Shown here: one piece after another, positions 23,149 to 38,482 of the stretch
How positions within the stretch are numbered: position 1 is the stretch's first letter
Layout: each line of letters begins with the position of its first letter
Virus record (IMG/VR): IMGVR_UViG_3300025636_000001
Span: 1-64,000 of that record
Origin: a virus
Length of the DNA stretch: 64,000 bases
Strand: one strand, 5' to 3'
Notes under the pieces: model-generated
Database searches by the model: none
Told to the model about the DNA's origin: nothing
What the model saw: the letters and a program-made list of their open reading frames with translations, nothing else
Translations under genes and position numbers: made by a program

Positions 23149-23850
23149 TTAATAATCCCTAACAAATCTAACATAAGCATACTTATTAGAATTTGCTTGA
23201 TATGCAAATGATATTGTAGAGTCTTCTCCATTATATGAAAAACCAGGAGTACTTTCGTTCGTGCTGCTTATACTTCTCCAATAAAATTCACTACTAGTTT
23301 TATAAAAAATCATAGTATCTCCATTACTACGAGCCCAACCACGTCCTTGACTATCAAATCCAGAGTTTCCAAAATCTAGTTTAGAAGTTATATCCAAAGG
23401 TAAAAAATTAGGAGTACCTCCAGTTCCATTTGTTACATCTGTACTACCACTTAAATACTCTAATGCTTGTTCAAGTTTTGCCCAATCTTGTGAAGTTGGT
23501 AATCTAAAACCATCAGGTGGAGTTAAAGCCTCTGCACCTTGTTTATTGAAAAGTAAACCTCTTGAATTATTACTTGAATCAAACTCAAAATAAACACATG
23601 CAGCTTGATCATTATCTAAATAACTGATTGCTTCTGCTTCTGTAGTAGCAATAGGAATACCAGCTTCAGTTTCGCTAACATTTGGTTTTGTCCAAACTAA
23701 ATTTCCTATTAAAACTTCATTTTCCCCAATAGGCTCAGGAATCGGAAATACTTGTGTATATCCATTATAAATTTTTTGCACATTTTCTGTACCTAGCTTT
23801 ATTTTACCAATTTCATCAAATGTTATATTATTAAATTTAAATTCTCCCAT
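23149..23850 (-). CDS. receptor-binding-type tip protein with FGE / C-type-lectin-like domain
   Basis: A 233-residue protein. The N-terminal 40 residues form a small adhesion-type module, and the rest has the features of the Fibrobacter-type paralogous domain: PPDGFRLPTSQDWAKL (111-126), RGWARSNGD and a terminal YVRFVRDY. These are the core strands of the formylglycine-generating/C-type-lectin fold, which also forms receptor-binding tips such as Mtd. It follows the two fibre genes and is probably a tail-tip adhesin. No reverse transcriptase gene was seen that would make it a diversity-generating target. Confidence 0.7.
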   Translation of the reverse strand: MGEFKFNNITFDEIGKIKLGTENVQKIYNGYTQVFPIPEPIGENEVLIGNLVWTKPNVSETEAGIPIATTEAEAISYLDNDQAACVYFEFDSSNNSRGLLFNKQGAEALTPPDGFRLPTSQDWAKLEQALEYLSGSTDVTNGTGGTPNFLPLDITSKLDFGNSGFDSQGRGWARSNGDTMIFYKTSSEFYWRSISSTNESTPGFSYNGEDSTISFAYQANSNKYAYVRFVRDY

Positions 23851-31291: not shown

Positions 31292-31537
31292 TTACTCTTT
31301 ATTATTTTTATTACCCCAAACTTTATCAACTGAAGCTAAACCTAATGCACCAAATGCTAATGCTGCTACAGCATTAATCAATACAGCAGAAGGAGCAATA
31401 TGTTCTTCTGTAAATTGATTTGCAAATAAAGTAACACAAAGAGATATACCTGCAAGTATACCTATAAATCTTTTAGATGAAGCATTTCCTTTTTCATCTT
31501 TAAGTAAATCAGAAACCCAGTTAACTATTTTTTTCAT
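31292..31537 (-). CDS. holin-like membrane protein
   Basis: 81 residues counted from the ATG at 31537 (MKKIVNWVSDLLKDEKGNAS). A longer frame to 31618 is possible but would overlap the next gene by almost 100 bases. Two hydrophobic stretches (FIGILAGISLCVTLFANQF and SAVLINAVAALAFGALGLAS) predict two membrane spans, with short charged ends: the usual class II holin arrangement. No endolysin gene is visible in the window. Confidence 0.65.
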   Translation of the reverse strand: MKKIVNWVSDLLKDEKGNASSKRFIGILAGISLCVTLFANQFTEEHIAPSAVLINAVAALAFGALGLASVDKVWGNKNNKE

Positions 31538-31820
31538 TTTTATGTTTTTTAGGTGCACGTTTCTTACGTGGTTTAGCAGCAGGCTTTCTACCTTTTCTTG
31601 CTTTACCTTTAGCTGCATCTACAACATCTTTGGATTGTTTACCAACTTCTTTGATTGCATCTGCTACATCTGCAACTTCTTCTTTGACACGTTTAACACG
31701 TCTCTTTGTTTCTTTAACAACTTCAATTGCTTTTTCATCAACTGTAGTTTTAGACCAAAGTAATTTCCATGCTTTTGACAATGAGAAGTTCCAGATTTTA
31801 TTTAATACTTTTTTAAACAT
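31521..31820 (-). CDS. amphipathic/basic coiled protein
   Basis: 99 residues. The N-terminal 25 are an amphipathic Trp/Lys helix, the middle (30-70) a long charged coiled helix, and the tail is almost entirely Lys, Arg and Pro. Overlaps the previous gene by 17 bases. Possible membrane-surface or DNA-associated protein of the virion; not recognised. Confidence 0.65.
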   Translation of the reverse strand: MFKKVLNKIWNFSLSKAWKLLWSKTTVDEKAIEVVKETKRRVKRVKEEVADVADAIKEVGKQSKDVVDAAKGKARKGRKPAAKPRKKRAPKKHKNEKNS

Positions 31821-35281: not shown

Positions 35282-35329
35282 AAAACAAACAAAGACCGGT
35301 CATATAATGTGGCTGGTCTTTCTTGTTTT
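35282..35329 (+). terminator. long perfect terminator after nrdA
   Basis: Core stem AAAGACCGGTCA (35291-35302) with TGGCTGGTCTTT around TATAATG, extended by AAAACAA (35282-35288) with TTGTTTT (35323-35329). One of the strongest hairpins in the window. Confidence 0.9.
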
Positions 35330-35388: not shown

Positions 35389-35589
35389 ATGAAAGAATTA
35401 CTTAATAGCATTACTGATACCCGTATGGTTTATCTTTTAATGTCAATTGTTTTATTGACAGGTTATTTTTTTCAATCATGGAGTGTAGTAATATTTGTAA
35501 CATTTATGTTAAACGTTGGTGTATGGACGGGGTTTTGTCCTAGCAAATGGTTCTTTGCTAAATGTGGTTTTAGAAAAGCTGATTTATAA
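35389..35589 (+). CDS. small two-span membrane protein, DUF2892-like
   Basis: 66 residues with two hydrophobic helices (about 12-30 and 31-48) and a Cys-containing C-terminus (GFCPSKWFFAKCGF), a layout like the DUF2892/YgaP membrane family. It starts the signalling operon after the strong terminator; a TATATTTT box at 35370-35377 may be part of its promoter. Overlaps the kinase gene by one base. Function unknown; may assist the membrane kinase. Confidence 0.6.
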   Translation: MKELLNSITDTRMVYLLMSIVLLTGYFFQSWSVVIFVTFMLNVGVWTGFCPSKWFFAKCGFRKADL

Positions 35590-36869
35590 TGAAAGCACTT
35601 TCAGGTTTATCAATTAACTCTAAAATATCTTTAGGAGTTGCTTTAGTTATCATGATGACATTCTTCATGGTGCAGACCTGTATTGTTTTTGGTTTATGTG
35701 AGCCTTCATTAGAATTAGCTAAATTTGGCTGGGGTTGTGTAGTGTTTTTCATGCCCCCTTTTTTTAAAGTTGTGCAAGAATTTGTCAGCAACATTAAAAG
35801 AAAAGAAGAAAATATAGATGTTTATTTAAATGCTATTGATAAATCTAATCTAGTTGTTATACTGAACATTGATGGTTATGTTTTAGAAGCAAATCAAAAC
35901 TTTTGCTCAGTAATGGGGTATCAAGAAAAAGATTTAAAAAATAAGCTTCACAAAAATTTAGTACCTAAAGAATATAATGAAAGTAAAGAATACTTTAACT
36001 TTTGGAAAACATTAAAAGAAGGTAAAAGTATAACTGGTGAATTTGAACGTATAGGGAAAAATGGAAAAAGTGTTTGGTTATTTGGTAATTATACCCCTAT
36101 TCAAAATAAAGCAGGTAAATATACTAGGGTCTTAAAAATAGCAACTGATATAACAACTCAACATGAGGCTGAGATAATAGTAAATCAAAAGAATACTTAT
36201 TTAGAATATGCAGCAAAAATCATACGTCATGATATGCACAGTGGTATCAATACTTACTTACCAAGAGGAATTAAGTCCCTTAACCGCAGACTTAGTCAAG
36301 AAAATATTAAAGATCTAAAAATAAGTGCTCCTTTAAAATTAATAAGTGATGGTTTAGATCATACACAAAAAGTTTATAAGGGTGTATACGAGTTTACAAA
36401 TCTTGTTAAAGAGAATGCACAGCTTACCACTGAACAAAATGATGTAACTGAAATACTAAAAGATTATCTAAGACTAACAGCTTACAAAAACAGCGTTATC
36501 TTATCTGATGACTTACCTAAAACATTGGAAATAAATAGAGCTTTATTTTGCACAGCTGTAGATAATTTTATTAGAAATGGATTAAAGTATAATGATAGTG
36601 GTACAAAATGGGTTAAGATTTATCTTGAATCAAAAATTATAAATAGCAAAACAAAAAACTTTATTGTTATTGAAGATAATGGTAGAGGTATTACAGGTGA
36701 AGAATTTACAAAATTATCAAAACCATACATACGTAAAGAAGATCAAAGTGAAACTGGAACTGGATTAGGATTAAATATTTCTATTGCAATTTTAGAAGAG
36801 CATGGGTTTAAAGTTCACGCAGAAAAAAAACAAAAAGATAACGGTACAAAAATATATATAAGGTTATGA
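35589..36869 (+). CDS. membrane sensor histidine kinase with PAS domain
   Basis: 426 residues, complete. Two membrane helices (about 13-36 and 45-62) with almost no periplasmic loop, so sensing is intramembrane or cytoplasmic. PAS domain about 80-190 with FWKTLKEGKSITGEF and SVWLFGNYTPI, the pattern of PAS domains in chemoreceptors and BdlA-like proteins, many of which bind haem or flavin. Phosphoacceptor region IIRHDMHSGI with H214; N-box DNFIRN (325-330); G1 DNGRG (363-367); G2 GTGLGLN (390-396). All catalytic elements present, so it should be active. Overlaps its receiver by four bases. Confidence 0.92.
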   Translation: MKALSGLSINSKISLGVALVIMMTFFMVQTCIVFGLCEPSLELAKFGWGCVVFFMPPFFKVVQEFVSNIKRKEENIDVYLNAIDKSNLVVILNIDGYVLEANQNFCSVMGYQEKDLKNKLHKNLVPKEYNESKEYFNFWKTLKEGKSITGEFERIGKNGKSVWLFGNYTPIQNKAGKYTRVLKIATDITTQHEAEIIVNQKNTYLEYAAKIIRHDMHSGINTYLPRGIKSLNRRLSQENIKDLKISAPLKLISDGLDHTQKVYKGVYEFTNLVKENAQLTTEQNDVTEILKDYLRLTAYKNSVILSDDLPKTLEINRALFCTAVDNFIRNGLKYNDSGTKWVKIYLESKIINSKTKNFIVIEDNGRGITGEEFTKLSKPYIRKEDQSETGTGLGLNISIAILEEHGFKVHAEKKQKDNGTKIYIRL

Positions 36870-37300
36870 TAAATACATTGATGTTGATTGATGATGAGAA
36901 TCTCTTTCATTTAGTGTTTGAAGATGCATGTTCAATGCTAGATATAGCATTATCAATACAATCACTAGACAGTAGTGATGAAGCAGATAAAATGTTTAAA
37001 AGTTGGTTTCCAGATAATGATGAGGAAAAACCTGAGTGTGTCTTTGTGGATCTAAATATCATTGGTTCTAGCTTTGATGGCATAGAAATGATTAGGAAAA
37101 TAAATCAGGATTATGGTAATGGTTGTGTTATTGGAATTATTTCTAGTAGTTCAGATCAAGAAGAAATTGAGAAAGCCAAAGCAGTAGGTGCTCAGTTTTG
37201 GATTATTAAGTCTGATGACATTGAACCAAGACTGGAAGAATTTCATAAAGATTATGAAGGGTATGTTAGTAAAACAAATCCTTTCAAAGTATACAGATGA
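36866..37300 (+). CDS. stand-alone receiver (response regulator)
   Basis: 144 residues, a complete CheY-like receiver: acidic pair D9/D10 (LIDDEN), phosphoacceptor D62 (FVDLNI), the Ser position near 93 (GIISSSS) and conserved K115 (IIKSDD). There is no output domain, so signal would pass by protein contact, as with CheY/Rcp1-type regulators. The ATGA overlap with the kinase gene and another with the next gene make translation coupled, so the cognate pair is secure. Confidence 0.9.
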   Translation: MINTLMLIDDENLFHLVFEDACSMLDIALSIQSLDSSDEADKMFKSWFPDNDEEKPECVFVDLNIIGSSFDGIEMIRKINQDYGNGCVIGIISSSSDQEEIEKAKAVGAQFWIIKSDDIEPRLEEFHKDYEGYVSKTNPFKVYR

Positions 37301-37869
37301 TAAGCTCTAAACATACAATCAAAGAAGCTTTAGAAATAGCTAAAAATAAAAAAGTTTACATAGAAGGAAACTTTACAAAGCTATTAAATGAAACTTCTGA
37401 TAAAGAAGTTAAAAGCTACATTGATTTATGTAAAGAAAAAGATTTACAGAACAGAAAGAAAAGATTACAAATAACTAAACAAGTTCAAAAGCAAAATAAA
37501 GATCTTGAGTCAGCAGCTAAAGAAAATGAAAAACTTGTTGTTGATTTGAAAAAGGCTTTAAAAGAAACTGAATCAGCAAAAAAAACTGCTGAGGATAGTA
37601 TGGATAAAGCTTTACAGGATCTAGAGGTTGTTCAAAAGAAAAGTCAATTTGAACTTATTGGTACTATTGTAAGAGTTGCTTTATGGGTTATAGGTGGTGT
37701 TGGTATACTAACAACCTTGATGTATGCAGTAGCTTTAATGAATGATGTAGATACTCAGATAATCGGTAGTACCTGGTCTAATATGTTTGGTATACTCCTA
37801 ACTAATGCTTTCTCTATTGTAGGGACCATTATGGGTGTAAAGTATGCCACAGATAATACAAAGGAATAA
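37297..37869 (+). CDS. coiled-coil protein with two membrane helices
   Basis: 190 residues. The N-terminal 50 residues are charged and helical, then a long Lys/Glu/Ala coiled coil (about 55-125), then two membrane helices (about 127-150 and 160-182). The C-terminus is short. Coupled to the receiver gene by a four-base overlap. The cytoplasmic coiled coil would be available for the receiver to bind, and the C-terminal membrane hairpin is holin-like. No family recognised, so lysis or transport function is inference. Confidence 0.7.
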   Translation: MISSKHTIKEALEIAKNKKVYIEGNFTKLLNETSDKEVKSYIDLCKEKDLQNRKKRLQITKQVQKQNKDLESAAKENEKLVVDLKKALKETESAKKTAEDSMDKALQDLEVVQKKSQFELIGTIVRVALWVIGGVGILTTLMYAVALMNDVDTQIIGSTWSNMFGILLTNAFSIVGTIMGVKYATDNTKE

Positions 37870-38453
37870 TGAAAAAGTATTTTAAGAATTTACAGACACT
37901 GCTTATAGTAGTTCTGGTTGTAGTTATATTACTAATGAGAAGTTGTTCTGGTAAGTCAGAACCTGTTGAACCTGTTATTATAACAAACGTTGAAGTCAAG
38001 TATGACACCATCACTGAATATGTACCTGAGTACATCCCTAAGCTTATCACAAAAGTGGAGTATGTACATGACACAGTAGTTAGAACACAACCTATTGATA
38101 CAGTAGCAATACTTAAAGATTATTTTGCTACATATGTATATGAAGATCGTCAAAAGTTAGATAGTCTAAACATAACTATCAAAGACTCGGTAACTCAAAA
38201 CAAAATTATATCAAGGTCTATAGCTTATGATCTTATATATCCCACTACTACTATTACAAAAGAAATCTACTTAAACAATAGAGAGTTTTATTATGGTCTA
38301 AACCTTAACGGTAAATCAGATCAACTAAACTACTTAGGTGGAAGTCTTTTATATAGAACTAAAAGCAAGCAAATATATAGTATTGGTTTAGGTGTTAATC
38401 AAAACATGGAACCTGTTATATCAGCCGGATTATACTGGAAAATAGGAAAATAA
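37869..38453 (+). CDS. membrane-anchored envelope protein, spanin-like
   Basis: 194 residues. An N-terminal single membrane helix (about 10-27) with no signal cleavage or proper lipobox, then an extended periplasmic region rich in Val/Thr/Tyr/Glu, and a C-terminal block of alternating aromatic/hydrophobic residues (SIGLGVNQ, ISAGLYWKIGK) resembling outer-membrane beta strands. Such layout could bridge inner and outer membranes. Gene start overlaps the preceding stop by one base. No family certain. Confidence 0.65.
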   Translation: MKKYFKNLQTLLIVVLVVVILLMRSCSGKSEPVEPVIITNVEVKYDTITEYVPEYIPKLITKVEYVHDTVVRTQPIDTVAILKDYFATYVYEDRQKLDSLNITIKDSVTQNKIISRSIAYDLIYPTTTITKEIYLNNREFYYGLNLNGKSDQLNYLGGSLLYRTKSKQIYSIGLGVNQNMEPVISAGLYWKIGK

Positions 38454-38482
38454 AAAAGGAAGACTTTTACATCTCCCTCTTT
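38454..38482. terminator. weak terminator between converging units
   Basis: AAAGG/TCTTT and AGA/TCT arms with an internal bulge around a CTTTTACA loop, between the plus-strand signalling operon and the minus-strand giant genes that converge here. Imperfect, so only suggested. Confidence 0.35.

Follow-up and report, generated by a model that had tools for sequence, protein, structure and literature searches.

A phage-specific histidine kinase and receiver cassette with a candidate membrane effector that may time lysis

The window, i.e., the whole 64,000-nucleotide stretch of DNA analysed here, was taken from a virus record of 116,877 bases that stems from a crAss-like phage. Proteins of crAss-like phages are matched by its large genes, with hits falling mostly on crAss-like and flavobacterial phage records at 20-30% identity, and this core-protein homology places the phage in the Crassvirales. 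An exact 127-nt direct repeat found near both ends of the virus record (1-127 and 115551-115677), with divergence thereafter, is possibly due to k-mer overlap in the assembly and not to terminal redundancy. At 23152-23850 (minus strand), the window encodes a Fib_succ_major domain protein adjoining tail-fibre genes. The five coupled open reading frames of the original prediction are present on the plus strand between positions 35389 and 38453, and the features relevant for this study are as follows.

31292..31618, minus strand: ORF that contains a two-span protein of about 80 aa, probably with an internal start; candidate for a holin-like protein, some 4 kb away from the operon
35291..35321, plus strand: terminator-like hairpin, 14 bp stem and T-rich tail (consensus match only)
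35389..35589, plus strand: M66, 66-aa membrane protein with the C-terminal motif GVWTxFCPSKW
35589..36869, plus strand: HK, 426-aa histidine kinase with PAS and HATPase domains, H214
36866..37300, plus strand: RR, 144-aa single-domain receiver, phospho-acceptor D62
37297..37869, plus strand: CC, 190-aa protein with coiled coil and two-span membrane hairpin; proposed effector
37869..38453, plus strand: EB, 194-aa protein with one span and with beta strands predicted at the C-terminus; candidate for a spanin-like protein
38453..38482, no strand assigned: terminator-like hairpin between convergent operon ends (consensus match only)

Successive genes of the operon overlap by 1 nt (35589), 4 nt (36866-36869), 4 nt (37297-37300) and 1 nt (37869). 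The upstream hairpin sits after the RNR large-subunit gene, between the ribonucleotide-reductase genes and the signalling operon, and the two flanking hairpins suggest that the latter is a separate transcription unit. This arrangement is not due to chance, as the same gene order is found in well over 100 viral contigs and is under purifying selection.

From the HK sequence, a PAS_3 domain (E=6e-14) and an HATPase_c domain (E=1e-14) can be deduced with Pfam, and inspection confirmed that the kinase boxes are intact, i.e., the H-box RHDMHS (H214), the N-box NFIRN, G1 (DNGRG) and G2 (GTGLGL). Wherever they could be aligned in the first 99 relatives, these residues are conserved without exception (H in 91/91, the N-box N in 93/93 and the G1 D/G/G in 94/94). 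RR matches PF00072 (E=3e-8) and bears D9/D10, D62, S93/S94 and K115, with D62 and K115 being invariant in 97/97 and 99/99 of the first 99 relatives, respectively. As anticipated, its 144 residues comprise a receiver with the complete DD/D/S/K set and, according to Pfam, no DNA-binding output domain. The gene immediately upstream of RR codes for HK in 133 of 146 loci having enough upstream sequence (134 when counting L132, whose RR start is over-extended), while one gene lies between them in nine loci and no HK was found upstream of RR in L188, L225 and L231. A YceI-like gene, recognised by eye, is located between HK and RR in L178 and L195. The distances of HK and RR correlate well (r=0.83 in the 41 loci with all genes), in line with the view that the two form a phage-encoded cognate pair. 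Conservation of RR peaks at alpha1, the loop of the phospho-Asp D62, beta5 and the start of alpha5, and faces such as these are used by receivers for contacting the kinase and other partners. The interface columns of RR are nearly invariant, in a set of only 57 clusters.

The first 65 residues of HK read as two membrane segments connected by a linker of about 12 residues with a Cys-x5-Cys pair, each cysteine of which is kept in 58-59 of about 82 HK members. A hydropathy scan scored only the first span in the window's HK and two spans in no more than 83/163 HK relatives, so that a pair of membrane helices with a short connection is a likely but not a proven reading. If correct, it would agree with how intramembrane-sensing kinases such as SaeS are defined, i.e., by two helices, a linker of <25 aa and no extracytoplasmic sensor domain. 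The kinase input varies between no sensory domain, PAS, GAF plus PAS, or two kinases. An early start of the kinase core, without a PAS, was found for 38 members; in 56, a PAS-sized segment comes first, and in 36, the core starts further on. The combination of GAF and PAS is carried by kinases of jumbo-size contigs (up to 430 kb). Two same-family kinases upstream of one RR were found in eight loci with long upstream sequence (L014, L168, L179, L183, L197, L205, L223, and L230), sometimes with the gene of a secreted coiled-coil protein between them. In contrast to the proposal of oxygen or redox sensing through the PAS domain, this domain is absent in three of the four crAss-like relatives (L105, L092, and L138) and in many other members, and such sensing is ruled out as core mechanism because PAS is optional. 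M66 is encoded directly upstream of HK in 65/167 loci. It does not match any family in Pfam (E<=1) or NCBIfam, so that its former labeling as DUF2892-like has to be dropped, and by linkage only, it is a possible membrane co-sensor.

CC is a coiled-coil protein with two membrane spans, as described before, and two spans are also predicted for all 161 full-length relatives. The AlphaFold (AF2) model of low pTM shows a long helix (36-148) followed by a second one (154-188), and the predicted membrane-hairpin topology resembles that of class II holins. Assignment to a known holin family or solved fold had to be rejected, as no match was obtained in Pfam, NCBIfam or, by sequence and fold, the PDB. 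Likewise, comparison with neighbouring membrane proteins by hhalign gave no match, and the sole strong fold match is an unnamed phage protein 46% identical to CC. A role as defence protein was also dismissed, since the underlying PADLOC match to LeoBC (E=2e-6) covers just coiled coil and membrane segments, so that it was put down to sequence composition. Directly downstream of CC, a PhoH-like ATPase gene was recognised by eye in L017, L020, L042 and L107, and 25 loci (e.g., L002, L007, and L082) encode, downstream of CC, members of a family of multi-span membrane proteins with coiled coil, 350-460 aa in length and not matched by Pfam. EB had been regarded as an envelope-bridging type of protein. 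It has one N-terminal span, and its structure model is too poor to be used (pLDDT 40). The protein lacks a Pfam or NCBIfam family, and a distant relative (27% identity over the full length) is found in a podovirus, where the gene that follows directly is that of an M15 peptidase, and this neighbourhood hints at a spanin.

At least 563 viral contigs encode relatives of RR (profile of ten RRs) and at least 521 relatives of CC, while neither was found in 50,697 isolated-phage records. Each of the 167 non-redundant loci has both RR and CC. CC directly follows RR in 138 of 162 testable loci and is not more than 1.1 kb away in the other 24; the loci were gathered with RR or CC from the best 80 per scan, and the sample thus leans to conserved members. 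Hence, the linkage of the pair to downstream genes, on which the original prediction had staked its case, holds for the membrane protein CC throughout, but EB is limited to the four loci of the crAss-like group. In the 41 loci with all genes, CC distances track those of RR less closely than HK does (r=0.35 versus 0.83), indicating that CC is also exchanged between phages; over all loci, the values are 0.63 for CC and 0.58 for HK. RR and CC are the fixed core of the cassette, while the kinase inputs vary. Median dN/dS values of 0.10 (RR), 0.12 (CC), 0.13 (HK) and 0.12 (M66) indicate purifying selection. Regarding the cassette as a crAss-like peculiarity proved too narrow, as it is spread over several phage types, including crAss-like, T4-like and jumbo-size contigs. 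In the large-phage contigs L190, L187 and L188, a DnaK-like chaperone gene is present 2-3 kb downstream of RR.

Neighbours of the cassette across the loci include PF05105 holins, M15 peptidases, Amidase_2, GH19 and CHAP proteins, as well as DUF5675 and PG-binding proteins. Where a PF05105 holin gene is present, it shares 4 nt with M66 in 21 of 28 cases. A holin, Amidase_2, M15 or GH19 gene lies within 4 kb in 16 of 43 representatives at 90% RR identity that have 4-kb flanks, versus 7.6% of positions chosen at random in nine long contigs of the set, corresponding to an about fivefold enrichment near holin/endolysin genes (binomial p~4e-8) against a background of only nine contigs and with only these four lysis families counted on both sides. 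No recognised lysis gene is located within 4 kb in 54/89 loci, and such genes are lacking near the crAss-like, MCP-adjacent and PhoH-adjacent cassettes. In the window's own crAss-like group, a PF05105 holin was not found, and the amidase of this phage is encoded 67 kb from the operon. The two-span protein at 31292-31618 belongs to a family of about 80 aa present in 51/167 loci, often adjoining endolysins, which has no Pfam or PHROG match and represents a candidate holin family. The suggested role in lysis is thus supported by conserved holin and endolysin neighbours, but these are weak in the group of the phage for which it was proposed. Control of lysis by the cassette would have about the same chance of being right as of being wrong, with the weakest case in the window's own crAss-like group.

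Taken together, these sequence-based findings are consistent with the following scheme, to which we assign a probability of roughly 0.5. HK, possibly with M66 as membrane co-sensor, would act like an intramembrane-sensing kinase whose two short-linked helices report a change at the inner membrane, with cytoplasmic PAS and GAF domains optionally tuning the input. Damage late in infection, membrane energy or the arrival of a second phage might be such a change. HK would then phosphorylate RR at D62, and RR, which has no DNA-binding output, would bind CC, the membrane hairpin bearing a long coiled coil in the cytoplasm. The phosphorylated regulator may thereby change the state of CC and license or delay lysis, i.e., function in lysis timing or lysis inhibition. 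Phosphotransfer, the signal, the contact between RR and CC and the control of lysis by CC are steps that we infer; direct contact between RR and CC is a good hypothesis, as CC is linked to RR in all 167 loci. The more general proposal that a phage-wide phosphorelay with membrane-effector output, in which interchangeable sensors feed a fixed RR-CC core, times lysis is tentative, its chances being slightly below even.

The same HK-RR-CC module might instead serve an envelope-stress response in which CC alters the envelope to exclude superinfecting phages or to stabilise the infected cell. This would fit a membrane hairpin having no holin homology, the resemblance of the kinase to intramembrane sensors of envelope stress and the missing lysis genes around the crAss-like, MCP-adjacent and PhoH-adjacent cassettes. 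However, the fivefold enrichment by endolysin and holin genes and the 4-nt coupling of holin and M66 genes argue against such a function, which we consider rather unlikely. Single-domain receivers can also serve as phosphate sinks. RR might hence act on a host protein, with the pair rewiring or draining host two-component signalling and CC employed as scaffold. Stronger conservation of RR (down to 56% pairwise) than of HK or CC would agree with a conserved partner of this kind, but a host-directed regulator would not require the invariable company of CC, and the cognate kinase accompanies RR in nearly all loci, making this explanation improbable.

The possibility raised at the outset, that the genes were recently captured from a host and have no phage function, could be based on the bacterial-type domains of HK and RR. 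However, about 85,000 bacterial and archaeal genomes gave only one relative, when scanned with exact peptide patterns that remote host homologues could escape. It is encoded on a phage-like 16.8-kb contig of a draft genome, and the RR of this contig is 99% identical to that of the viral contigs L154-L157. A profile search of 245 genomes from the phylum of this draft genome did not reveal any other close relative, and RR was not found in plasmids either. With near absence from the sampled bacterial genomes and hundreds of viral carriers under purifying selection, recent capture is rejected, its probability being minimal. That the module is a phage-specific signalling system can be regarded as secure, and timing of lysis through CC is the function that we favor for it.

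The components of the cassette are of known kinds, and what is new is their phage-specific combination with a membrane output. In the open-access literature, to which the search was confined, neither a kinase in crAss-like phages nor kinase control of lysis was found, in agreement with the novelty originally claimed for crAss-like phages. Histidine-kinase signalling is a hallmark of cells, and a conserved cassette of kinase, receiver and effector living almost only in phages would represent signal transduction of viral type. Should it set the time of lysis, the way in which a phage monitors the condition of its infected host becomes testable, and the lysis timing of abundant uncultured aquatic phages would be linked to environmental input.

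Among known systems, the intramembrane-sensing kinases SaeS, LiaS and BceS have two helices and a short linker without extracytoplasmic sensor domain, as is likely for HK, and need accessory membrane proteins. In SaeS, helices 9-31 and 41-63 are joined by a 9-aa linker (PMC4388633); on the side of HK, the likely linker comprises about 12 aa, and the small membrane protein M66 of the operon might be a parallel to these accessory proteins. Unlike these kinases, HK is phage-encoded, has optional PAS/GAF domains and works with a regulator devoid of a DNA-binding domain, and it is not assigned to them by sequence. RR resembles CheY-like single-domain regulators in lacking an output domain and in having a full receiver, including the acid pocket, the phospho-Asp, the Ser and the Lys. 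In contrast to them, RR is always accompanied by the gene of a two-span membrane protein with coiled coil, and it makes up a separate family of high conservation that was found in viral contigs. In T4 lysis inhibition, the phage likewise controls lysis timing by an envelope signal (PMC6832632), as proposed here, albeit with the antiholins RI/RIII instead of phosphotransfer and without homology. Clostridium difficile phage phiCDHM1 carries the sensor-kinase homologue AgrC (PMC7790227) as part of host-like quorum-sensing genes lacking the regulator AgrA and any link to lysis. Finally, divergent Rec domains of jumbo phages have been reported never to occur with histidine kinases (PMC7824862), in contrast to the RRs described here, which always keep their catalytic residues and are nearly always accompanied by a kinase.
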